From: an uncultured Planctomyces sp.
GTDB lineage: Bacteria > Planctomycetota > Planctomycetia > Planctomycetales > Planctomycetaceae
Direction of reading: 5' to 3'
DNA length: 43,085 bases
Assembly (NCBI GenBank): GCA_937904325.1
Contig: CALGTK010000344.1
Location: 1-43,085 of the forward strand
The translations under genes and the position numbers were made by a program. Under the pieces are notes generated by a model, which saw nothing but the letters and a program-made list of their open reading frames with translations, did not search any database and had not been told where the DNA came from. Shown in pieces: positions 2,414 to 25,617 of this stretch; positions within the stretch are counted from its first letter, which is position 1; every line of letters starts with the position of its first letter.

Positions 2414-3346
2414 TTACCCACAGCGTTCCTGTGCTGCCAGGGCAGCCTGCTGCACAATATCGACTCCCACCAGGTCGCTCCAGGCAGTGATCAATTCCTG
2501 AAAGGCAGGACCGGGTGTGCCATCGCCGATCATCTGGTCGTTGAACTTCGTCACGGGCAGGAGGCAACAGGTAGTTGAAGACGTCATTGCTTCATTGGCT
2601 TCCGCAAGATCATCAAATGTAATTGCCGACTCCTGCCAGTCAAATTCAAGGTGGGCAGCGATCTCTTTCATGACCATCTGACTGATTCCGCCGAGAACGA
2701 GTTTCGCAGGCGGTGTGTGGATGGTTCGATCTTTGACGAGGTAGAAATTGCCGGCTGCGGTTTCCGTGATGTAACCGTCCGGGGTTGCCAGCAGAGAAGA
2801 TGCCGTCGGGAAACGAACCCGTGCTTCTTTATCGGCACGCAACCAGTGAAGCCGATTTCGATGCTTTGCCTGCGGAGGGACCGAGTCGTTTGGCAAGGGC
2901 TGAATGCTGACTGATGCCAGGATCTGGCCAGTGGATTGTTTCTCAGCCCACAGTTCAAACGGCAGTGGAAAACTATGAACGCAGACCGTGCCTTGTGAGG
3001 CGACATCGCGACCGACGGCTCCGAGGTAGGTCAGATTCTGGCCTGCGGACACAAAGATGATGATCCCAAGATCTTGGTTCTTCGGGATCAACGCGGAGTT
3101 GTGCGTGACGATTTCTGCCACGGCGTCTTCGAGCTGCTCGCGGGCGACCTCGGTCGGAAAGCCGCATAGCGCAAGCGAACCAAATAAACGATCAATGTGC
3201 TCACCAAGGCGGAACGGCACATGTCCGAAAGTGCGGATCATCTCGGTGACTGACGCTCCCGCGACGACGGACAGGTCGGTCACCGGAACGGCAGCACTGG
3301 ATGCTGGAACGATTTCGCCGTTCAGAAATGCGATGGGCTCGGGCAT
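2414..3346 (-). CDS. Class IV aminotransferase (BCAT/D-amino-acid aminotransferase/ADC lyase fold)
   Basis: A 310-residue PLP enzyme of fold type IV. The N-terminus matches the family start (FLNGEIVPASSAAVPVTDLSVVAGASVTE). The PLP lysine is in AKHRNRLHWLRADKEAR, and the phosphate-binding region is YITETAAGNFYLVKDRTIHTP, equivalent to the ITE-x-x-x-x-N motif of IlvE and PabC. The family includes branched-chain aminotransferase, D-alanine aminotransferase and aminodeoxychorismate lyase. Residues deciding among them are not clear here, so no symbol is given. It is about 70 bases upstream of the methyltransferase on the same strand. The start ATG at 3346 fits the family. Confidence 0.85.
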   Translation of the reverse strand: MPEPIAFLNGEIVPASSAAVPVTDLSVVAGASVTEMIRTFGHVPFRLGEHIDRLFGSLALCGFPTEVAREQLEDAVAEIVTHNSALIPKNQDLGIIIFVSAGQNLTYLGAVGRDVASQGTVCVHSFPLPFELWAEKQSTGQILASVSIQPLPNDSVPPQAKHRNRLHWLRADKEARVRFPTASSLLATPDGYITETAAGNFYLVKDRTIHTPPAKLVLGGISQMVMKEIAAHLEFDWQESAITFDDLAEANEAMTSSTTCCLLPVTKFNDQMIGDGTPGPAFQELITAWSDLVGVDIVQQAALAAQERCG

Positions 3347-3555
3347 TCTCTTGAGTTCTCATCCTGCTTTTGTCGCAGGCGGGACGGGGTGTTGATACAA
3401 ATGGTCAGCGACTGTGCTGAAATGTTCGCTCGAGCACCCCGGTGTGGGAGCTGGCAACGACGCTTGCCACAGTCTGTGGGTTCAGTGAACCAATTTCTAC
3501 AACACCTGTCTGGATCCCGTTGCGACCGAAGATTCTTCCCCCGTCAACCGGTCGA

Positions 3556-3584
3556 GTGACTTCGAAAATGGCGGCCGATATACT
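3556..3584 (+). promoter_or_regulatory. Candidate sigma-70 promoter for the beta-hydroxyacid dehydrogenase gene
   Basis: GTGACT (3556-3561, 4 of 6 to TTGACA) and TATACT (3579-3584, 5 of 6 to TATAAT) are separated by exactly 17 bases. A transcript would begin near 3591, about 48 bases before the start codon at 3639. The surrounding spacer 3347-3638 (292 bases, between divergent genes) holds no credible gene; it also contains a small GGCAA/TTGCC hairpin near 3452-3467. Confidence 0.4.
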
Positions 3585-3638
3585 CCCGCTCAGCGTGGAT
3601 GACGGCAACTTTGGCTACAGTACAAGGAACGACCAGAG

Positions 3639-4553
3639 ATGGCATTGGTGATTGCTCCGGGAACGACAAAAATTGGCTGGATCGGCACTGGAGTCATGGG
3701 CTCCAGCATGTGCGGGCACCTGATCGACGCTGGATACTCGGCCACGGTCTTCTCCCGCACAAAATCGAAAACCGAATCACTGGTCGCCAAAGGTGCCACC
3801 TGGGCCGAATCCCCCAAAGCTGTCGCGGAAGCATCGGACGTAATCTTTGGAATTGTCGGATTTCCTTCGGACGTGCGTGAAGTCTTTCTGGGAGAATCCG
3901 GAGCACTGGCCGGTTCCAAAGAAGGCAACGTGCTGGTTGACATGACGACGAGCGAGCCGTCGCTAGCCGTAGAAATCTACGAAGCTGCCAAAGTAAAAGG
4001 CGTTGCAAGTGTCGACGCTCCCGTTTCAGGTGGAGACGTCGGAGCAAAGAACGCTGCCCTGTCGATCATGATCGGCGGCGAAAAAGAAACAGTCGCCGCA
4101 CTGCAGCCTTGCTGGGATGCGATGGGCAAAACCATCGTCCATCAGGGCAGGGCAGGAGCCGGTCAGCATACGAAAATGGTCAATCAGACGCTGATTGCCA
4201 CCAACATGATTGGCGTCTGCGAAGCATTGCTTTACGGCTACAAAGCGGGTCTTGATCTGCCGACAGTTCTGCAGTCGGTTGGATCTGGAGCAGCCGGAAG
4301 CTGGTCGCTGTCGAACCTCGGCCCTCGAATCATGGACAACAATTTCGATCCGGGTTTCTTCGTCGAACATTTTATCAAAGACATGGGCATCGCGCTGGCT
4401 GAATCCAGAAACATGGGCCTTTCGCTGCCGGGTCTGGCGTTGGGGAACCAGCTGTACATGGCTGTGCAGGCTCAAGGGCACGGTCGAGACGGTACTCATG
4501 CGTTGCAGTTGGCACTGGCCAGCTTATCTGGTGTTGATTGGAAAGGCCGCTAG
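3639..4553 (+). CDS. NAD(P)-dependent beta-hydroxyacid dehydrogenase (3-hydroxyisobutyrate / tartronate semialdehyde reductase family)
   Basis: A 304-residue cytosolic oxidoreductase. The N-terminal Rossmann motif [13 protein letters not shown] and the cofactor-switch segment [11 protein letters not shown] (Ser-Arg-Thr instead of an acidic residue) suggest NADP preference. The substrate motif [11 protein letters not shown] and the catalytic lysine in [14 protein letters not shown] are both present. Members reduce or oxidise 3-hydroxyisobutyrate, tartronate semialdehyde, glyoxylate or succinic semialdehyde; the exact substrate is not decidable. AAGGA lies 10 bases before the ATG at 3639, supporting this start. 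dapA follows after 103 bases on the same strand. Confidence 0.9.
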
Positions 4554-18562: not shown

Positions 18563-19012
18563 TCAGAACGTCTTGCGACTATCCAACAGCAAAGTGACGG
18601 GACCATCATTGACCAGTCTCACATCCATGTGTGTTTGAAATCGGCCGGTCTCAACATGAATTCCCCGCCCTCGAACTTCGGCCACGAATGATTCGTAAAG
18701 TCGCTCTGCTTGCTCTGGCCGAGCTGCGTCAACAAAGCTTGGTCGTCGACCTTTGCGGCAGTCACCAAACAGCGTGAACTGGCTGACGACCAGCATTTGG
18801 CCATCAACATCGTTCAACGCAAGGTTCATCTTTCGATCGTCGTCCTCGAAGACTCGCAACCCCGCGACCTTTTCCGCGAGGGTGACGGCGTCGGCATCAG
18901 AATCGCCCGTCCCAACGCCGAGTAGCACTAGAAACCCACGCTCGATCTGACCGACGACTTCGTCTTCGACTTTTACACTGGCAGAAGCAACTCTCTGAAC
19001 GACCGCTCGCAC
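18563..19012 (-). CDS. dtd: D-aminoacyl-tRNA deacylase
   Basis: A 149-residue protein that hydrolyses D-amino acids (and glycine mischarged on tRNA-Ala) from tRNA. From the GTG at 19012 it begins [13 protein letters not shown], the canonical Dtd start. GGAGG lies 6 bases upstream, so the longer open frame to 19033 is not used. The hallmark motifs are present: [17 protein letters not shown] (active-site region; most relatives have ADTRKG) and [12 protein letters not shown] carrying the Gly-cisPro chirality filter. Length is normal. It is 58 bases downstream of the metallophosphoesterase-like gene and may be read through from that cluster. Confidence 0.95.
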
Positions 19013-19070
19013 AACACTCCTCCAGGACAACAATGTTCGATACGTCAGGCGTGGAATTCATGTTCGGCAT

Positions 19071-19883
19071 TCAGTACCGGCCATATCGACGTTCTTTTCC
19101 AGGAAGCACTTCCAGGCACGTCGTCCACCATCCTTCGAGGATCGTTTTTGAGAATTCGTCTGGCAAGTCTTCGGCTCGCATTTCTGCTGCAAGCTGCTCG
19201 TAATCATAGATAAGGGGGATGAACTCAAGCAGAACGGCATTTGAGGGAGAACTCGAGTCGCCCCCATGTTCAGCTCTGCCCGTGTCAATAATCGTGTACC
19301 AGACGTTCGTTTTACCATCGTTTTCAGGGCGACCGAGCACTCCAACGTTTGCGAACAATCGTTCGTCCTTCAACCGTCGCTGCCAGTGGATTCCGGAATG
19401 TGTGCCCAGCACGACGTCAGCCTTCGCGTCCTTGAAAAGTCGCTCCAGGAAATGCGTGCTGGTGGTGGACTCCCACAGAAACTCGTTAGTTTTTCGAGGG
19501 CTGCCGTGGCACAGCAGAAATCGTATGCCGTCCACATCGAACCTGATCTCCGAAGGCAAGGCACGCATCCACTGGCGGTTTTGAATCGAAGTGTTGGCGT
19601 ATGTGTAGTTGTAACTGATCTGAGCGAACCAGTTGTCTCGCGGATCTGTGTAGCCGCACTGACAATCGTGGAGATCGTTTCCGATGCTGTTGTCGTAGTT
19701 TCCCTGGACGCACTCAATCGCATTATCCTGCAATAACGGAAACACCCGATTGGGATACGGGCCAAACGCTCCGAGATCGCCGAGACAGTACATCCGGTCG
19801 ACACCGCGTTGGTTTGCGTCTTCAATAGCCGCTTCGAGAGCCAGATAGTTGTTATAGATTCCGCCGAAAAACGCAATTTTCAC
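19071..19883 (-). CDS. Metallophosphoesterase-like protein with a degenerate first metal motif
   Basis: A 270-residue calcineurin-like fold protein from a GTG start. Motif II (CLGDLGAFGPYPN, D36), motif III (GNYD at 61-64), motif IV (LLCHGSP, H126) and the C-terminal histidine motif (GTHSGIHWQRRL, H162 and H166) are present. The first motif, normally SDIHGN, reads GGIYNN at residues 7-12, so both metal-binding residues Asp and His are replaced by Gly and Tyr. Activity is therefore uncertain. GGAAGG lies 9 bases upstream of the GTG, inside a 16-codon ORF whose stop overlaps this start by 4 bases. It is the last gene of the flavoprotein/radical-SAM cluster. It could be a pseudoenzyme or use an altered metal site (inference). 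Confidence 0.8.
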   Translation of the reverse strand: MKIAFFGGIYNNYLALEAAIEDANQRGVDRMYCLGDLGAFGPYPNRVFPLLQDNAIECVQGNYDNSIGNDLHDCQCGYTDPRDNWFAQISYNYTYANTSIQNRQWMRALPSEIRFDVDGIRFLLCHGSPRKTNEFLWESTTSTHFLERLFKDAKADVVLGTHSGIHWQRRLKDERLFANVGVLGRPENDGKTNVWYTIIDTGRAEHGGDSSSPSNAVLLEFIPLIYDYEQLAAEMRAEDLPDEFSKTILEGWWTTCLEVLPGKERRYGRY

Positions 19884-19930
19884 AAGTGTTTACCTTCCCG
19901 GTCGTTCCAGTTGATCGCGTTGGATGCCAT
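19880..19930 (-). CDS. Possible 16-residue peptide gene between radical SAM and metallophosphoesterase genes
   Basis: A 17-codon open frame encoding MASNAINWNDREGKHL. Its ATG shares bases with the stop of the radical SAM gene (TGATG) and its TGA overlaps the GTG start of the next gene (GTGA), so it exactly bridges the gap and would be translationally coupled on both sides. A purine-rich GGAAGG inside it also serves as Shine-Dalgarno for the downstream gene, so it may be only a coupling device or chance. Next to a radical SAM gene, a short peptide could also be a modification substrate. This is inference from position only; I recognise no precursor family. Confidence 0.25.
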   Translation of the reverse strand: MASNAINWNDREGKHL

Positions 19931-20835
19931 CAGCTTTCCATCGAGCTTGATGCGGCGTTCGTACAGATCGCTCCGTATTGAAAGCAGGTAAAGCACGCGC
20001 CGTAGGCCAGGGGGAACTCACGATTGGCTTCATCGAGTGTCTCGCCCATGATCGCTCCGGGCGAATCGAGAAGGATCGGGCAAACAGCGATGCCTCGGTC
20101 GGTAACAACCCGACTGTGGTTACAAATAAGTTGTCCCATATCGAATTCTTCAAGTAATTCATGGGTCACCCGGTCGAACTGGCCGTAGCCTTCTGTCCGT
20201 TCAGCCTCCGCACCGATCTTTAGTCGCGGGAGGATCTTCAACCTTGCGCGACTGTAACCGCGGTCTGCCAGCACTTCTCGAAACTGTCCGAGGACCTTCT
20301 GATCGTCAGTGTCGTCCCAGACCCGAGTCATCGTGATAATGGGCAGGAAGCCATGCTCGACTAATAATGCCACGCCCTGTACAGCCTTTTCAAAGGTCCC
20401 TTCCCCACGGATCGGGTCATTGGTTGAGGCGTCTGGACCGTCGATCGAGACCCTGAACTCAAGGCAATAGCTGCTGGCGTCCTCAGCTTGCCTCAAACGC
20501 TCAACCCACTCCGACTTCAGAAAGGTGGCATTGGTCAAGACTGTCGCGGGTCCGTACTGCAACGTCAGTTCGAGGATTGGAACCAGTTCTTTGTTCAAGA
20601 ACGGTTCGCCTCCGGTGAAGTAGTATTCGCGCACGCCGTACCGGACCGAATCTTCCAACTGGCTTCGCACAGTTTCCAGTGACAGGTGCCCGAATTTGTC
20701 ATTGGTCGGGCTGCAACTGATGAAGCAGTGACTGCATTCCAGATTGCACCTGGTACCCGCGACTTGAAACCACAACTCGTCGAGTGACTCCATCGCGACG
20801 CCTGGGCATTTCGTGAAGTTGGTTTCAGCCTTCAT
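19930..20835 (-). CDS. Radical SAM protein with cysteine-rich (SPASM/twitch-like) C-terminus
   Basis: A 301-residue radical SAM enzyme. The cluster motif is C30-x3-C34-x2-C37 in GTRCNLECSHC. The SAM-binding GGEP motif is in YYFTGGEPFLN, and RVSIDGP and PRLKIGAEAE continue the partial TIM barrel. The C-terminal 70 residues carry a second set of cysteines: ICNHS, VCPIL, then GACFTCFQYGAIC. This arrangement resembles SPASM or twitch domains binding auxiliary Fe-S clusters in peptide-modifying and dehydrogenating enzymes. The substrate is unknown. Its ATG overlaps the stop of the upstream FAD oxidoreductase (ATGA), and its stop overlaps the start of a 16-codon ORF. Codon use looks like that of the neighbours. 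Confidence 0.85.
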   Translation of the reverse strand: MKAETNFTKCPGVAMESLDELWFQVAGTRCNLECSHCFISCSPTNDKFGHLSLETVRSQLEDSVRYGVREYYFTGGEPFLNKELVPILELTLQYGPATVLTNATFLKSEWVERLRQAEDASSYCLEFRVSIDGPDASTNDPIRGEGTFEKAVQGVALLVEHGFLPIITMTRVWDDTDDQKVLGQFREVLADRGYSRARLKILPRLKIGAEAERTEGYGQFDRVTHELLEEFDMGQLICNHSRVVTDRGIAVCPILLDSPGAIMGETLDEANREFPLAYGACFTCFQYGAICTNAASSSMES

Positions 20836-22070
20836 GCCGCCTCCGCTGCGATAAGATCAAACGCGGATTGAATTTGTTCCAGTCCGATTCGCAATAGAAA
20901 CCGCGAATCGCGACCGTAACTTTTCGCCCCAAGTATGTAGAAGCCGGGTTCAGGATTCTTCAAAGTGTCCGTTCCGGGACTGCTCTGTGTCATACAGTTC
21001 GCAGAAGATTCACCCATCAACGCTGCCGCCAGTTTCATTGGCCCCTGACTGGCGTAGCACTCATGAATCTGTAGTTCTTCATAGAGTGACCGGTCTGGAT
21101 GATACCCGACATTTGCGATGACGTTGTCAATGGTCAAGACCTTACAGTTTGCACCACCCTGCTCTGTATTTGTTTCGATGGTGACTTGAATGCTGCCATC
21201 ACTGGCTTTCCCGATTTGACGGACGTACGACGCAGGAAACCAGTTGATTTTCGAGGCTGCGTTTGCCGCAAGTTCATTTGCTCTGGCCGTCAGGTCGGCC
21301 CTGCCACGCAGAGTGTCGCCGTCGATACCGGAGAGTGGCGTATCGGTTGACTTGCGTGTCAGCCAGAACACCTCAGTGTCATAATTCTGTTCAGTCAGAC
21401 TTCCAAGTGCGACGATCACCGTAGCGGCTGAGTAGCCGCTACCGACAACCAGATTTCGGCGACCAGCAAATCGAGATTCATCTTTGCCGGTGATGTCCGG
21501 CAGGAGATAGTCGATCCGCTCGGAAAGTTGGCGTTCACCAAGTGCCGGAACACCACCATCGCCAAGCCAGTTGTGGTTTCCAAAAGTTCCAGAGCAGTCG
21601 AGAACGAAATCGGCTTCGATGACTTGCTCACCATTCTGCTGTGACTCAGTCAGCAACGTAAATGGTGATTCCAGTCGCGAGCGCCGGCCGATCGCATCGC
21701 CCTTCCAGAAATGGCGCTTTCCGATTGTGAGGACGCGAGTATTCTCTTGAATGCAACCTTGAAGGCGTGGATGCTGGCTGAGCGGAAGCAAGTATTGCCC
21801 GAAAAACTCGACTCCGGTCAGCAGGGCGTCAGCAGCGGGTAAGTCTGCGTCTGGCAGTGCTCCCCTGCCCCACTCCGACGAGTTGATTCCGAACGGGCTG
21901 AACAGTCGCACGTGCCCCCATGACCGAACGTTGTCCGCAACATTACCCTTCTCAAATACTACAACCTCGAAGTCTCGCAGCCGCGCGTACAAGGCCGCTT
22001 CCAGTCCAATCGGCCCTGCTCCGGTGATCGCAATCCGTTTGCCTGGCATTCCGTCGCTCCAAATCGACAT
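20832..22070 (-). CDS. FAD/NAD(P)-binding oxidoreductase (flavin monooxygenase-like)
   Basis: About 412 residues from the ATG at 22070, 24 bases after the ThiO-like stop. The frame is open to 22358, but that region overlaps ThiO and has no flavoprotein features. The FAD Rossmann motif ITGAGPIGLEAALYARL is at the N-terminus. A conserved RSWGHVRLFSPFG follows, and DFVLDCSGTFGNHNWLG marks the second FAD segment. NLVVGSGYSAATVIVALG is an NAD(P)H-binding motif as in flavin-containing and N-hydroxylating monooxygenases. The C-terminal YILGAKSYGRDSRFLLRIGLEQ resembles the FAD-closing end of the family. A hydroxylase or dehydrogenase role on a small molecule or peptide is plausible. The 4-base overlap with the radical SAM gene indicates a shared operon. 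Confidence 0.8.
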   Translation of the reverse strand: MSIWSDGMPGKRIAITGAGPIGLEAALYARLRDFEVVVFEKGNVADNVRSWGHVRLFSPFGINSSEWGRGALPDADLPAADALLTGVEFFGQYLLPLSQHPRLQGCIQENTRVLTIGKRHFWKGDAIGRRSRLESPFTLLTESQQNGEQVIEADFVLDCSGTFGNHNWLGDGGVPALGERQLSERIDYLLPDITGKDESRFAGRRNLVVGSGYSAATVIVALGSLTEQNYDTEVFWLTRKSTDTPLSGIDGDTLRGRADLTARANELAANAASKINWFPASYVRQIGKASDGSIQVTIETNTEQGGANCKVLTIDNVIANVGYHPDRSLYEELQIHECYASQGPMKLAAALMGESSANCMTQSSPGTDTLKNPEPGFYILGAKSYGRDSRFLLRIGLEQIQSAFDLIAAEAA

Positions 22071-22093
22071 CCAGCGTTCCAAGTAGCTCGCTA

Positions 22094-23242
22094 CTATTGT
22101 TGCTGACTTTGTGTTGCCACCAACTCCTCGATCGACGCGTCCTTTGATGCAAGAGCTGATCCCACCAAACCGTAAGGGCTCATTGGAATTGACGATTCCT
22201 GTCCCAGCAGCATTTGGCGGACAAGAACAGCCGTGCCGGGCGACATTTGCAATCCGGATCGGAAATGCCCGGTAGCAACAAACAGATTGTTTTGGGCGGG
22301 CAAACGTGTAATGAAAGGTTCTTCGCGGCCCGAGAAAGGTCTCAACCCGGACCAGCATCTTTCAATTTCCGCCGAAGCCAATGCAGGGACGACCGACACG
22401 GCGAATTTAAGCAGACTTTGCACGCCGTCGACTGTGTTCTGTTTGATAAACCCGACTCGTTCTTCGGTGGAACCAATAAGAATCCGCCCGTCAGTTCGCG
22501 GTACCAGATATCTTGCTCCATCCTGAATGACATGCCGAAATGGAAGCGGCGAGCATCTAAGCAGCACGATTTGACCACGCATGGGCTCGACGTTTAGTTC
22601 CACGCCGGCTTCCTGAGTCAACTGACGAGACCACGCTCCACTGCAAATCACAAATTGCCCGGCCGCGTAATCAGCACCTGCTGTGCGAATGTGGGTGACA
22701 CGATTTCCGGACACCCGCCATCCACAGGCTGCCGCGCCTTCAAGAAATTCGACACCGACTTCCGCACACGCTGCCGCGAGCGCTTTCAGATGTCGAGGAT
22801 TTCGCACCTGGCAAAATTCATCAAGACGGTAGGCGTCTTTGATGCTTGACGAGATTGCCGTTTCAAAGTGCCGTCGCCGATCGTCGCTCAGCAACTCAAC
22901 TCTGTTACCGGAGGCTTTCCATGTGTTTGCTTCATCCAGCAGACCGCGGTCAAACGATACTTCGATCGCCCCGCAGTTCTGGTATCCATTGTCGATGCCC
23001 GTGGCTTCGCGAAGGGATTGAGTCCACTCGGCCCAAAGTTCACAACTGAGCGCTCTCAGCCGCCCTTCCCCGCTGGTTTCACCGGCAAGATTACCAGGCG
23101 GCAGCATGCCCGCTCCTGCCCAGGATGCTTCCTGGCCGATCATTCTCTGATCGATTATTTTGACGGTCGCGCCGTGGCTGGCAAGTTCCCAGGCGGCTGA
23201 GAGGCCAATCACTCCTCCACCGACAACAATCACATCTGACAT
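22094..23242 (-). CDS. ThiO-like glycine/D-amino-acid oxidase (DAO family)
   Basis: A 382-residue flavoenzyme of the D-amino-acid oxidase/glycine oxidase family. The N-terminal GGGVIGLSAAWELA binds FAD. EASWAGAGMLPPG is the covalent/ADP-proximal segment typical of ThiO. PMRGQIVLL, YLVPRTDGRILIGSTEERVGF and ATGHFRSGLQMSPGTA follow in the right order. ThiO oxidises glycine to the imine for thiazole synthesis in thiamine biosynthesis. No other thi gene is in the window and the gene opens a flavoprotein/radical-SAM cluster, so a role in that cluster is an alternative. The last 25 residues (ASKDASIEELVATQSQQQ) are a non-conserved tail. It begins the cluster; upstream is a 257-base spacer. Confidence 0.85.
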   Translation of the reverse strand: MSDVIVVGGGVIGLSAAWELASHGATVKIIDQRMIGQEASWAGAGMLPPGNLAGETSGEGRLRALSCELWAEWTQSLREATGIDNGYQNCGAIEVSFDRGLLDEANTWKASGNRVELLSDDRRRHFETAISSSIKDAYRLDEFCQVRNPRHLKALAAACAEVGVEFLEGAAACGWRVSGNRVTHIRTAGADYAAGQFVICSGAWSRQLTQEAGVELNVEPMRGQIVLLRCSPLPFRHVIQDGARYLVPRTDGRILIGSTEERVGFIKQNTVDGVQSLLKFAVSVVPALASAEIERCWSGLRPFSGREEPFITRLPAQNNLFVATGHFRSGLQMSPGTAVLVRQMLLGQESSIPMSPYGLVGSALASKDASIEELVATQSQQQ

Positions 23243-23499: not shown

Positions 23500-25365
23500 T
23501 TACCGAAGACTGTTGAGGTACGCCGTGCCGAGACTCTTGATATCTGTCGAATAAACAGCACTTGCCGCTGCTCCCATATTCGCGCCGGACTGCAGTCTGG
23601 AGATGAACTGACCAAACTTTCGCCCGCCCCCCGCCTTGATCATGAATGAAACTACCGAATAGCCAACCGGACCGACTTCGCCTGGCCCGAACCGCCCATC
23701 CGTGAAAACATCTTCCGGTCGCTCGATGCCCTTGAGCGCGTCCAGAACCTGCGATCCCATGCCAGCCACATAGGAATTGGAGCCAACAACTCGCCCGGCC
23801 ATCGCCAGACCTGTTCCTCGAATGACCCACTGTGGCAGATTCGTTCCTGGTTTCTGCAGGTAAGCGCCAGTGATGTGGTCAATCACGCTGAGGTGAAGGC
23901 CGCCATGAGTCTCGCCGGGGTCATCACCCACGTCTTCTACGGCGATGTATGCGTCTTCAAACCCCGTTGTGATATGAGCATGCCCATGCATGTCGCGAGC
24001 CGTGCTTCGGCTGTGCAGAACCTGGTTTAACTCCGTGTAACCAAAACGGTCTTTCATTACGAAGATCGTCAGCCGACCTTTCCAGACTGGCCGTTGCTGA
24101 ATGCCGAACATCGATCGCAACTCACCCAGATACTGTCCTGCCCAGTCGCTGACCTGTTTCAAACGATCTTCTGACGCGTCACCGTACACGTAGAACTCGT
24201 CGCTGGTCACGTATCGAGCGGTGACTCGAGCTGACACTCGTTTCCATTGGTCTTCGGTTCGCTGTTCACGCATCTGGCGAAACTCGTCTGGCGACAACGC
24301 GGCGAGACGTTCCATAGCCAGTTCATCTTCCGTCGGCACGAGGCGTCGAAGTGGGAGCTTCGGATCACCGCCGTCGAATTTGGCACCTTCCTCGATCCAT
24401 GTCCGAAGGTCAGCGTGGAACTTGCGAGTGATTCTGGCTTGCCCCTGAGGCATCCGAGGTTGCTCCCCTGCCCCGACGAGTTGCCACAATCGACTGCCGT
24501 CCAGATTACCCGCGACGATTACTCGTCCGCTGTCACCGCCACGCATCAGGTTCTCAAAAGTTTCGACGTTCAATCCACTGTTAGGATCATTGCCTCGGTG
24601 ACAGCCGGTGCAGAGATTCACTATGGTCGGTGCGATGTCTCGAACGAACGAAACTTTTTCTGTACCCGTGGCTTTGGTAATCATGACTGGTGGAGCGTCC
24701 GGTTCTTTGCTTCCGTCCGACTTTAACTCTGCCAGGGGGGTTGCCTCGTTGTTGCCGTCAAAGATCGCTCCCTGATTAATCCAGGTGTAGATTTTCTCCA
24801 GCTCGGGACGATCAAGCGCATTACCATTTTTGGGCATTCGAGCCTGAGCATCCTGTGTAACCAGCCTGAGCATAAGCAGGCTGCGTTGAGCCTGTTTGGG
24901 AACGAGCAGTACGCCATTCTGTCCGCCGCGTTTCATCGTTGCGAAGGATGTTAGATTCAGTCGGCCTCGCGGGTTGTCGCTCCCGTGGCAGTTACCGCAG
25001 CGTTGATCCAGAATCGGAGCGATCTCACCAGAGAAGCTGATCAGCGTGGGGTCTGGTTTACCAAGGGCTTTCGCCACTCGTTGACGGTTGACTGTGAGAA
25101 GTTTCTTAAGTGACGAAACCGCCCGATCTGTCGGAGACAGTTGAGCGTCGGCAATCAACTTCATCGCCTGCTCATGCAGCTCTTCGAGCTTCTTTTCGGC
25201 CTCTTCGTAATTCTTACGACGAATCAGCGACGAGACGGTCGCAACCTCCTTTTGAATCGCTGAAAGCTGTTTCCGCTGCTCGGGAGTTGGAGCCGCCTGA
25301 GAATTCGAAACCGACAACACTAATATTGCTAATCCGAGTGTGACGCACGCACAGAGTTGACGCAT
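23500..25365 (-). CDS. Secreted protein with two planctomycete cytochrome-c-like domains and a peptidase-like C-terminus
   Basis: About 621 residues from the ATG at 25365 (GAGG 9 bases upstream; the frame runs to 25452 without a signal peptide). A signal peptide (LGLAILVLSVSNSQA) leads into a helical region. Two domains of the PSCyt1/c-type type follow: FSGEIAPILDQRCGNCHG (heme motif C123-H127) and FVRDIAPTIVNLCTGCHRG (C252-H256), each with a distal RMPK or RMPQ methionine as candidate axial ligand. The C-terminal 270 residues resemble DUF1570-type peptidase-like domains: RLTIFVMKDRFGYTELN, GETHGGLHLSVIDHITGAYL and LPQWVIRGTGLAMAGR, without an intact HExxH. Covalent heme binding and periplasmic location are inferred from motifs. 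Electron-transfer partners are not in the window. Confidence 0.8.
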   Translation of the reverse strand: MRQLCACVTLGLAILVLSVSNSQAAPTPEQRKQLSAIQKEVATVSSLIRRKNYEEAEKKLEELHEQAMKLIADAQLSPTDRAVSSLKKLLTVNRQRVAKALGKPDPTLISFSGEIAPILDQRCGNCHGSDNPRGRLNLTSFATMKRGGQNGVLLVPKQAQRSLLMLRLVTQDAQARMPKNGNALDRPELEKIYTWINQGAIFDGNNEATPLAELKSDGSKEPDAPPVMITKATGTEKVSFVRDIAPTIVNLCTGCHRGNDPNSGLNVETFENLMRGGDSGRVIVAGNLDGSRLWQLVGAGEQPRMPQGQARITRKFHADLRTWIEEGAKFDGGDPKLPLRRLVPTEDELAMERLAALSPDEFRQMREQRTEDQWKRVSARVTARYVTSDEFYVYGDASEDRLKQVSDWAGQYLGELRSMFGIQQRPVWKGRLTIFVMKDRFGYTELNQVLHSRSTARDMHGHAHITTGFEDAYIAVEDVGDDPGETHGGLHLSVIDHITGAYLQKPGTNLPQWVIRGTGLAMAGRVVGSNSYVAGMGSQVLDALKGIERPEDVFTDGRFGPGEVGPVGYSVVSFMIKAGGGRKFGQFISRLQSGANMGAAASAVYSTDIKSLGTAYLNSLR

Positions 25366-25617
25366 TCTTACAGTCCTCAATTCATCGAGTTGACGAATCT
25401 TCTGAATCGATCCACGTTTGACAGTTTTGACCCAGTATAAGTCTGCTGCCATGCTGAAGAAAGACTTGAAGCATTGGCCTCATTGCTCGAACGTACCGGC
25501 GCAACGCTCACTGTTAACCTCACTGAGACGACCCAGCTTCGCCAGAATTTGAACGATCAAAGGCAGATTGTCGAATTCGGCGTGCCTTGTGACGAGGTCG
25601 TCAGCCTGTGTTAACAG

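Follow-up and report, generated by a model that had tools for sequence, protein, structure and literature searches.

A compact run of four genes on one strand of a contig (CALGTK010000344.1) from an uncultured Planctomyces sp. raises the question of whether these genes form a single biosynthetic route and, if so, what the product is. A sequence-only reading had proposed a shared pathway in which a peptide or amino acid is oxidised and modified. The window (i.e. the whole stretch of 43,085 nucleotides) contains the following features around this locus.

18563..19033, minus strand: dtd, D-aminoacyl-tRNA deacylase (TIGR00256, 185.1 bits versus 101.5; conserved part from ~19009)
19071-19883, minus strand: metallophosphoesterase-like protein, 270 aa, GTG start (calcineurin-like family Metallophos_2, PF12850, 43.3 bits versus a gathering score of 27)
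19930-20835, minus strand: radical SAM protein, 301 aa (Radical_SAM, 73 versus 29.5)
19963..20124, minus strand: C-terminal cysteines C238, C252, C281, C284 and C291 of the radical SAM protein, invariant in 15 sequences
20725..20748, minus strand: CX3CX2C motif (C30, C34, C37) of the radical SAM protein, invariant in 15 sequences
20832 to 22070 or 22049, minus strand: FAD/NAD(P) oxidoreductase (FADox), 412 or 405 aa (Pyr_redox_3, 33.3 versus 30)
22094-23242, minus strand: ThiO, glycine oxidase, 382 aa (TIGR02352, 284.1 bits versus a cut-off of 250.8)
23500..25452, minus strand: PSCyt1 planctomycete cytochrome c protein, upstream of ThiO (PF07635)

Coordinates and family matches confirmed the compact arrangement that had been described: ThiO and FADox are separated by 23 bases, or by 44 if FADox starts at 22049, FADox and the radical SAM gene overlap by 4 bases, and 46 bases lie between the radical SAM and phosphoesterase genes. 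Beyond the phosphoesterase gene are dtd and cvpA on the same strand, followed by accA on the opposite strand. The mechanically called FADox reading frame extends to 22358, i.e. into ThiO.

The conserved unit comprises three genes

The phosphoesterase family was detected at 447 loci in one scan, of which the best 80 were read. FADox, radical SAM and phosphoesterase genes occurred together at 58 of the 93 loci with a phosphoesterase-family member, and 56 of these 58 shared one gene order and orientation, indicating that their juxtaposition is not due to chance. The same cassette is found in Planctomycetota, KSB1 and Calditrichota. FADox was not seen in the fetched stretch at 20 of 78 radical SAM plus phosphoesterase loci, including three of the six from the window's own family, and was not beside these two genes in three (i.e. 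G024, G137 and G194) of 14 genomes with full-strength phosphoesterase matches. This 14-genome set leaves out four weaker matches (G033, G145, G160 and G187; E values of 4.9e-32 to 1.1e-47). One of the four, G187, carries ArsS, the radical SAM enzyme discussed below. In the cultured Thalassoglobus neptunius KOR42 (locus L089), the radical SAM sequence is identical to that of G194, a genome without an ArsS match, and FADox again does not adjoin the radical SAM and phosphoesterase genes. The conserved unit is FADox, the radical SAM protein and a degenerate phosphoesterase; the four-gene unit proposed earlier stood for these three members and failed for ThiO, which is not part of it in the window's family.

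ThiO was present in 29 of 31 own-family genomes and in 37 of 41 genomes of a second family (i.e. that of genome G121). Among the 30 own-family ThiO loci read, ThiO directly adjoined dtd, with nothing between, at 13; the remainder had FADox beside ThiO (six), radical SAM beside it (one), dtd at 1.1 kb (one) or none of these within 1.5 kb (nine). At cassette-free sites dtd adjoins ThiO, and the PSCyt1 gene was seen beside ThiO at sites both with and without the cassette. The window's genome encodes thiG on a different contig (ThiG, 332.4 bits). As ThiO occurs with or without a cassette nearby, exceeds the ThiO cut-off and is accompanied by thiG elsewhere in the genome, it was judged to be an ordinary vitamin B1 (thiamine) gene, a resident neighbour outside the cassette. 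On the cassette's other side dtd is likewise a resident gene, and the PSCyt1 gene is a resident neighbour.

One pathway of all four genes, with ThiO oxidising an amino acid, would be in keeping with the presence of ThiO at 24 of the 78 radical SAM plus phosphoesterase loci and, in G121's family, with its pairing with a TIGR04282 transferase at 19 of 30 loci read and with FADox at 12 of 30. However, 12 of these 19 TIGR04282 pairs had no FADox within 1.5 kb, no ThiO was present in the fetched stretch at 54 of the 78 loci, ThiO is found in nearly all genomes of both families surveyed, and the window's ThiO passes the ThiO cut-off in a genome that contains thiG. The ThiO-dtd sites and the ThiO survey in G121's family led to rejection of this pathway, which we regard as very improbable.

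Three divergent proteins

The predicted structure of FADox (pLDDT 94.4) had its best matches among YpdA/Bdr (best PDB match 7a76; TM 0.69/0.86) and ferredoxin-NADP reductases. FADox is ~80 residues longer than YpdA/Bdr and scored 38.9 bits against a cut-off of 339.9 for the YpdA bacillithiol disulfide reductase family (TIGR04018), so that the likeness is one of fold: the predicted fold is YpdA/thioredoxin-reductase-like.

Both the CX3CX2C motif and the extra C-terminal cysteines noted earlier in the radical SAM protein proved genuine, and the latter probably hold an auxiliary Fe-S cluster of a twitch/SPASM-like type. The protein did not fall into a characterised family with an unrelated substrate. 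In hmmscan its radical SAM core was closer to the Rv1681 family (NF049973; 96.4 bits versus a cut-off of 380) than to ArsS (TIGR04167; 44.3 bits versus a 300-bit cut-off, with residues 18-163 only aligned), both scores being far under the cut-offs. A full-length profile alignment to ArsS, the sole SPASM family compared, gave an E value of 5.6e-15 and placed the five invariant ArsS cysteines in the same order, whereas the C-terminal half alone did not align significantly (E 0.15). Orthology to ArsS, as raised by the full-length alignment, was therefore not upheld by the C-terminal test. In a quick tree that included 5 of 20 ArsS rows, the radical SAM family stood apart from those five. The protein also differs from ArsL of arsinothricin biosynthesis, which, in the available text of PMC8552651, has 428 aa, its motif at 194-201 and only three conserved cysteines; the window's protein has its motif at 30-37 of 301 aa and further invariant cysteines.

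The predicted phosphoesterase structure (pLDDT 81.6) best matched SapH (Spr1479; PDB 3qfm), an asymmetric Ap4A hydrolase with the same fold (TM 0.75-0.81; Foldseek E 3.6e-18) and, by its PDB title, an adenosine-nucleotide enzyme; a literature search for SapH found no paper. Enzymes of the calcineurin-like family carry a two-metal site, for which we take the motifs to be DxH, GD, GNH, H and GHxH, with ligand roles assigned accordingly. The two-metal site is incomplete in the cassette protein. Metal-1 ligands were replaced (G8, Y10 and G164) in 14 of 14 aligned sequences, DxH reading GxY and GHxH ending in Gly instead of His, indicating that metal site 1 is gone. Alignment to 3qfm showed that the metal-2 ligands D36, N62, H126 and H162 (i.e. 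those of GD, the N, the H and the first H of GHxH) were retained. Unlike SapH and the calcineurin-like enzymes, the cassette protein combines this loss with invariant cysteines (C33, C74, C76, C125 and C256) and a DCxCGYTDPRDN block.

The cassette is associated with arsenic genes

An ArsM-type methyltransferase gene lies between the radical SAM and phosphoesterase genes at five KSB1/Caldithrix loci and nearby at six more. In 14 ORFs the radical SAM domain is fused to ArsM, 5 of the 14 falling inside the cassette clade (quick tree; fork support 85). In five Brocadiaceae-like fusion genomes the phosphoesterase was not matched at 1e-30 and the fetched stretch contained no FADox, so that these two proteins may be dispensable for the radical SAM step.

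The distributions of TIGR04283 and ArsM were examined in 294 genomes of the phylum. TIGR04283 (E <= 1e-30) was present in 13 of the 14 full-strength phosphoesterase genomes (10 over the cut-off), 30 of 38 with the radical SAM family and 69 of 91 with ArsS, as compared to 11 of 165 with neither the radical SAM family nor ArsS. A single ArsM query, of the ArsM_long type, matched 8 of 14, 12 of 38, 48 of 91 and 5 of 165 genomes, respectively, leaving 6 of the 14 phosphoesterase genomes without a match to this query. The names of TIGR04282 and TIGR04283 (the latter an 'arsenosugar' transferase) presumably derive from association. The window's genome shares this company with its relatives: it encodes ArsM_long, TIGR04282 and TIGR04283, here all on contigs other than that of the cassette. 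ArsM, TIGR04282 or TIGR04283 was in the fetched stretch at only 17 of the 78 radical SAM plus phosphoesterase loci.

The same 294 genomes included 38 with the radical SAM family (E <= 1e-20) and 91 with ArsS (E <= 1e-60; 90 over the cut-off), with an overlap of 0 (hypergeometric P 2.3e-7, genomes being counted without correction for kinship). Within 17 genomes of the window's own family, six had the radical SAM and phosphoesterase genes, nine had ArsS, none had both and two had neither (P 0.0023); the window's genome had no ArsS match at 1e-60. Eight families contain genomes of both types, with no single genome holding both. Avoidance was incomplete in a wider sample: 4 of 50 other phosphoesterase-family genomes, including the complete genome of Adhaeretor mobilis and the full-cassette genome of locus L067, also had ArsS, and all four had the radical SAM family. 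These 50, from 80 named genomes, comprised 15 outside Planctomycetota by title, 15 without radical SAM at the phosphoesterase locus and 20 others. Association with ArsM, TIGR04282 and TIGR04283 together with avoidance of ArsS points to an arsenic function, and the three cassette genes seem to take the place of ArsS, the builder of arsenic-containing sugars.

A putative ArsS-independent route to arsenosugars

The cassette probably encodes an ArsS-independent route to arsenosugar-type organoarsenicals. The cassette itself is probably mobile or repeatedly lost, and on this contig it sits between the resident genes thiO and dtd. Sequence evidence provides the gene order, the family identities, the co-occurrence and fusions, the ArsS avoidance and the lost ligands; from these we infer every chemical step, above all those of the flavoprotein and phosphoesterase. 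Arsenite would be methylated by the ArsM encoded elsewhere in the genome. The flavoprotein may use NAD(P)H to hold the arsenical, or a thiol carrier, in a reduced state or may supply electrons to the radical SAM protein. The latter, with its auxiliary cluster, is proposed as the C-As bond-forming enzyme in ArsS's place, attaching a SAM-derived group to arsenic; this group would most likely be 5'-deoxyadenosyl, as for ArsS, which adenosylates arsenic according to the available text of PMC12159101. The phosphoesterase-fold protein, having lost one of two metal sites, might then bind or process the adenosyl-arsenical, in which As occupies the position of P in AMP, and the sugar would be completed by the TIGR04282/TIGR04283 transferases encoded elsewhere.

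This route would resemble the ArsS pathway in its radical SAM core, the ordered C-terminal cysteines and the partner families present in genomes that mostly hold one system or the other. It would differ in the low score of the radical SAM protein against the ArsS model, the additional FADox and degenerate phosphoesterase, and, among cassette relatives, the fusion of ArsM to the radical SAM domain. Another comparable system, that for arsinothricin (arsQML), likewise pairs a radical SAM enzyme with ArsM, both acting on arsenic on the arsinothricin side. The earlier view is sustained in that the genes are compactly arranged, probably serve a common biosynthesis and match no described pathway that was found. 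In the available portions of open-access papers found with arsenic and ArsS-type names (including PMC8552651, PMC12159101, PMC5552862, PMC9312934 and PMC13188914), the radical SAM family, FADox and phosphoesterase were nowhere tied to arsenic.

It is unlikely that the cassette makes an organoarsenical of another kind, such as an arsenolipid head group or an ACP-arsenical resembling arsinothricin, and that TIGR04282 and TIGR04283 are shared for other reasons. FADox and the phosphoesterase had no match at the 20 ArsS loci read, which suggests extra chemistry, and one KSB1 ArsM tested (L095) matched the arsinothricin ArsM model best, at 376.8 bits, below its cut-off of 500, with 136.9 for arsenosugar ArsM. 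However, a Calditrichia ArsM (L097) scored highest against the general arsenite methyltransferase model, and the same ArsM family occurs, as ArsM_long, at 14 of the 20 ArsS loci (53-60% identity), so that ArsM does not discriminate; moreover, TIGR04283 is tied to the cassette no less closely than to ArsS, and the radical SAM protein lacks the ArsL layout described in the accessible part of PMC8552651. Still less probable is a non-arsenic function with the arsenic links as by-products of shared ecology. The unlinked positions of ArsM, TIGR04282 and TIGR04283 in the window's genome would suit such a function, but the radical SAM-ArsM fusions, the presence of ArsM within the KSB1/Caldithrix operon, the enrichment of TIGR04283 and the avoidance of ArsS argue against it. 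The first suggestion, that a peptide or amino acid is oxidised, found no support, the genomic associations pointing to arsenic instead. RiPP or SPASM peptide maturation was set aside on the basis of neighbours, as the recurrent ones are metabolic and the arsenic links fit better.

An arsenosugar route independent of ArsS would have wider consequences, as ArsS is a natural genetic marker of arsenosugar formation. More tentatively, and with distinctly less confidence, the cassette may represent a second, widespread route to the arsenosugar C-As bond, in which a radical SAM family for which orthology to ArsS was not upheld, and which is often fused to ArsM, replaces ArsS within bacterial families; in the cassette form, a phosphoesterase fold would have turned from phosphorus to arsenic, binding an arsenical analogue of AMP through the remaining half of the metal site together with invariant cysteines. 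The ArsS-independent route would provide a case of radical SAM enzyme replacement inside a pathway, and possibly of a phosphoesterase fold repurposed for arsenic. If the radical SAM family does the work of ArsS, arsenosugar formation would extend to many genomes of Planctomycetota, KSB1 and Calditrichota, and to some anammox-like ones, in which ArsS seems to be missing, and estimates of organoarsenical producers would change, the phosphoesterase alone occurring at those 447 loci.

A conserved three-gene cassette beside a resident ThiO gene

The window is one entire contig (C344) of a 7.97-Mb genome in 488 contigs, planctomycete judging by its named relatives. The spacing given by the sequence-only reading (i.e. 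a 23-base gap, a 4-base overlap and a 46-base gap) was correct for the first four genes listed here:

22094-23242, minus strand: ThiO
End 20832, start 22070 or 22049, minus strand: FAD/NAD(P) oxidoreductase (FADox)
19930-20835, minus strand: radical SAM protein
19071-19883, minus strand: phosphoesterase-like protein
Beyond the phosphoesterase-like gene, minus strand: dtd (D-aminoacyl-tRNA deacylase), then cvpA
Beyond cvpA, opposite (plus) strand: accA

Window proteins were compared by tblastn with 31 regions around radical SAM relatives and the best 80 of 447 phosphoesterase loci. Records with Planctomycetota, KSB1, Calditrichota or GN15 in the title repeatedly showed the FADox-radical SAM-phosphoesterase arrangement; Bacteroidetes and Gemmatimonadetes records held radical SAM and phosphoesterase genes only. 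In a profile count of 93 loci (13 radical SAM regions and the same best 80 of 447), all three genes were present at 58, with 56 sharing order and strand and 46 contiguous; radical SAM and phosphoesterase alone were found at 20 and a lone phosphoesterase at 15. The radical SAM gene lay elsewhere in 12 of the 15 genomes with a lone phosphoesterase, and in total was found in 14 of 17 genomes searched (i.e. these 15 and two with it at the locus). The four-gene cluster originally proposed was upheld for FADox, radical SAM and phosphoesterase and failed for ThiO, a resident; the conserved unit (the cassette) is three genes, not four.

Of 31 genomes in the window's family, 29 have ThiO. At the 30 ThiO loci read there, it directly adjoined dtd at 13 (L175-L178, L181, L183-L185, L187, L191, L195-L197), lay ~1.1 kb from dtd at one (L174), and adjoined FADox at six (L170-L173, L179, L198) and radical SAM at one (L188); at nine, none of these three genes was within 1.5 kb. 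Three cassette-free ThiO sites came from genomes with ArsS, the known arsenic-adenosylating radical SAM enzyme (G152, G216, G257), and these genomes gave no radical SAM or phosphoesterase match. In the family of genome G121, ThiO was present in 37 of 41 genomes and was paired with the arsenosugar-associated transferase TIGR04282 at 19 and with FADox at 12 of 30 loci read (L200-L229); 12 of the 19 TIGR04282 pairs had no FADox within 1.5 kb. The thiG gene of the window's genome is on another contig. ThiO is therefore a resident gene that does not need the cassette, be the cassette-free sites ancestral or the result of deletion.

In G266 (L031:7871-9512) two unrelated genes, Uma2 and DUF1963, interrupt the cassette by separating FADox from radical SAM. 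Directly upstream of FADox, L037 (11841-13460), L038, L040 and L041, loci from two families, each carry a gamma-glutamyltranspeptidase-like gene, identified by Pfam for the L037 copy and by clustering for the others. A formylmethanofuran--tetrahydromethanopterin formyltransferase gene, identified by NCBIfam on the L101 copy (2948-3850), lies upstream of the cassette at three loci, the other two being L088 and L106 with similar ORFs.

Links between the cassette and arsenic genes

An arsenite methyltransferase (ArsM)-type gene lay between radical SAM and phosphoesterase at five KSB1/Caldithrix loci (L093, L095, L100, L110, L113), and ArsM genes were found at six further loci (L042, L083, L097, L105, L128, L130). 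NCBIfam was searched with four ArsM-type proteins, those of L095, L097 and L053 and the L045 fusion. None reached the 263-bit cut-off of the arsenite methyltransferase model (197-238 bits); the arsinothricin ArsM model scored higher for L095 (377 bits) and L045 (243), with a cut-off of 500. In 14 ORFs of distant relatives (L045-L049, L057, L060, L061, L246-L251) the radical SAM domain was fused to an ArsM domain, and TIGR04282- or TIGR04283-like domains, some weak, occurred in the fetched stretch at nine of these 14 loci. At L055:8607-9980 and L250:6621-8495, a single protein next to the radical SAM gene combines both kinds of domain. Five fusions from family f44, which we take from its cytochromes to be Brocadiaceae-like, fell inside the cassette clade in a quick tree (fork support 85). 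Nine large fusion ORFs (837-1423 aa; L057, L060, L061, L246-L251) contained ~240-290 residues between radical SAM and ArsM without a match to the profiles used.

The window's genome encodes ArsM_long on C488, with cysteines common to the ArsM of cassette and ArsS genomes, and TIGR04282 (C388) and TIGR04283 (C394), both above cut-off. Twenty ArsS loci were read, drawn from 19 of the 91 ArsS genomes; 17 carried ArsM, TIGR04282 or TIGR04283, and 14 the same ArsM_long family. Planctomycete ArsM has been noted before, as group IV (PMC5552862).

Cassette genomes seldom carry ArsS

Among 294 genomes of the phylum, the radical SAM family (E <= 1e-20) was present in 38, ArsS (E <= 1e-60) in 91 and both together in none. 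The phosphoesterase (E <= 1e-130) was present in 14, adjoined by radical SAM in all and also by FADox in 11. For avoidance of ArsS, P was 2.3e-7 for the 38 radical SAM genomes and 0.005 for the 14 phosphoesterase genomes, values that treat genomes as independent and are too small owing to kinship, but eight families holding both kinds of genome (f1, f2, f44, f48, f56, f60, f61, f67; counted by hand) still showed no genome with both (P = 0.0023 for f1, the window's own family, alone). TIGR04283 (E <= 1e-30) occurred in 13 of the 14 phosphoesterase genomes (three below the curated cut-off), 30 of the 38 radical SAM genomes and 69 of the 91 with ArsS; of the 165 genomes that had neither radical SAM nor ArsS, it occurred in 11.

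A second sample of 50 named genomes, all carrying the phosphoesterase, yielded ArsS in four, against ~15 expected at the phylum rate (binomial chance of <= 4, 1e-4), the 50 being hand-picked and partly from other phyla. All four also had radical SAM, split over two contigs in one (G367). This sample tells against strict exclusion of ArsS by the cassette.

Proposed role of the cassette

The radical SAM protein has a CX3CX2C motif and five invariant C-terminal cysteines. Its profile alignment with ArsS covered 271 columns, almost the whole length (E 5.6e-15), but the radical SAM core, which gave E 2e-17 by itself, accounts for the signal, and the C-terminal half by itself gave E 0.15; the protein was therefore not called an ArsS. 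The FADox model (pLDDT 94.4) best matched YpdA/Bdr, followed by ferredoxin/flavodoxin-NADP reductase; in 53 sequences C359 was invariant and H336 and C338 were conserved in at least 90%. The phosphoesterase model (pLDDT 81.6) best matched SapH, an asymmetric Ap4A hydrolase. Compared with 3qfm, DIH is replaced by GIY or GVY and GHIH by TH(T/S)G, whereas GD, GN, the CHG histidine and the leading histidine of the final motif are kept; with the metal-ligand roles that we assume for these residues, one metal site is predicted to be lost and one kept. Cysteines 33, 74, 76, 125 and 256 were invariant in 14 sequences.

According to PMC12159101, radical SAM enzymes both adenosylate arsenic on the way to oxo-arsenosugars and carry out the ACP transfer that leads to arsinothricin, and PMC8552651 describes ArsS working with ArsM in Synechocystis. 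As the cassette radical SAM family keeps company with ArsM and the transferases and is rarely found in the same genome as ArsS, it would most simply take ArsS's step, joining an adenosyl-type group to arsenic. FADox might in that case serve as reductant for the arsenical or as an electron donor, and the phosphoesterase fold might act on, or simply bind, an AMP-like adenosine with As in place of P. In the f44 fusion genomes no phosphoesterase match was obtained and the stretches read there contained no FADox; the radical SAM step may thus do without either protein. No description of this family in arsenic metabolism was found in the papers searched, and the proposal is a new form of arsenosugar-type pathway in which a different radical SAM enzyme is joined by two further proteins. 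The complete genome of Adhaeretor mobilis (G383, L120) has ArsS, radical SAM and phosphoesterase, the last two far apart, and would be useful for asking whether both routes coexist.
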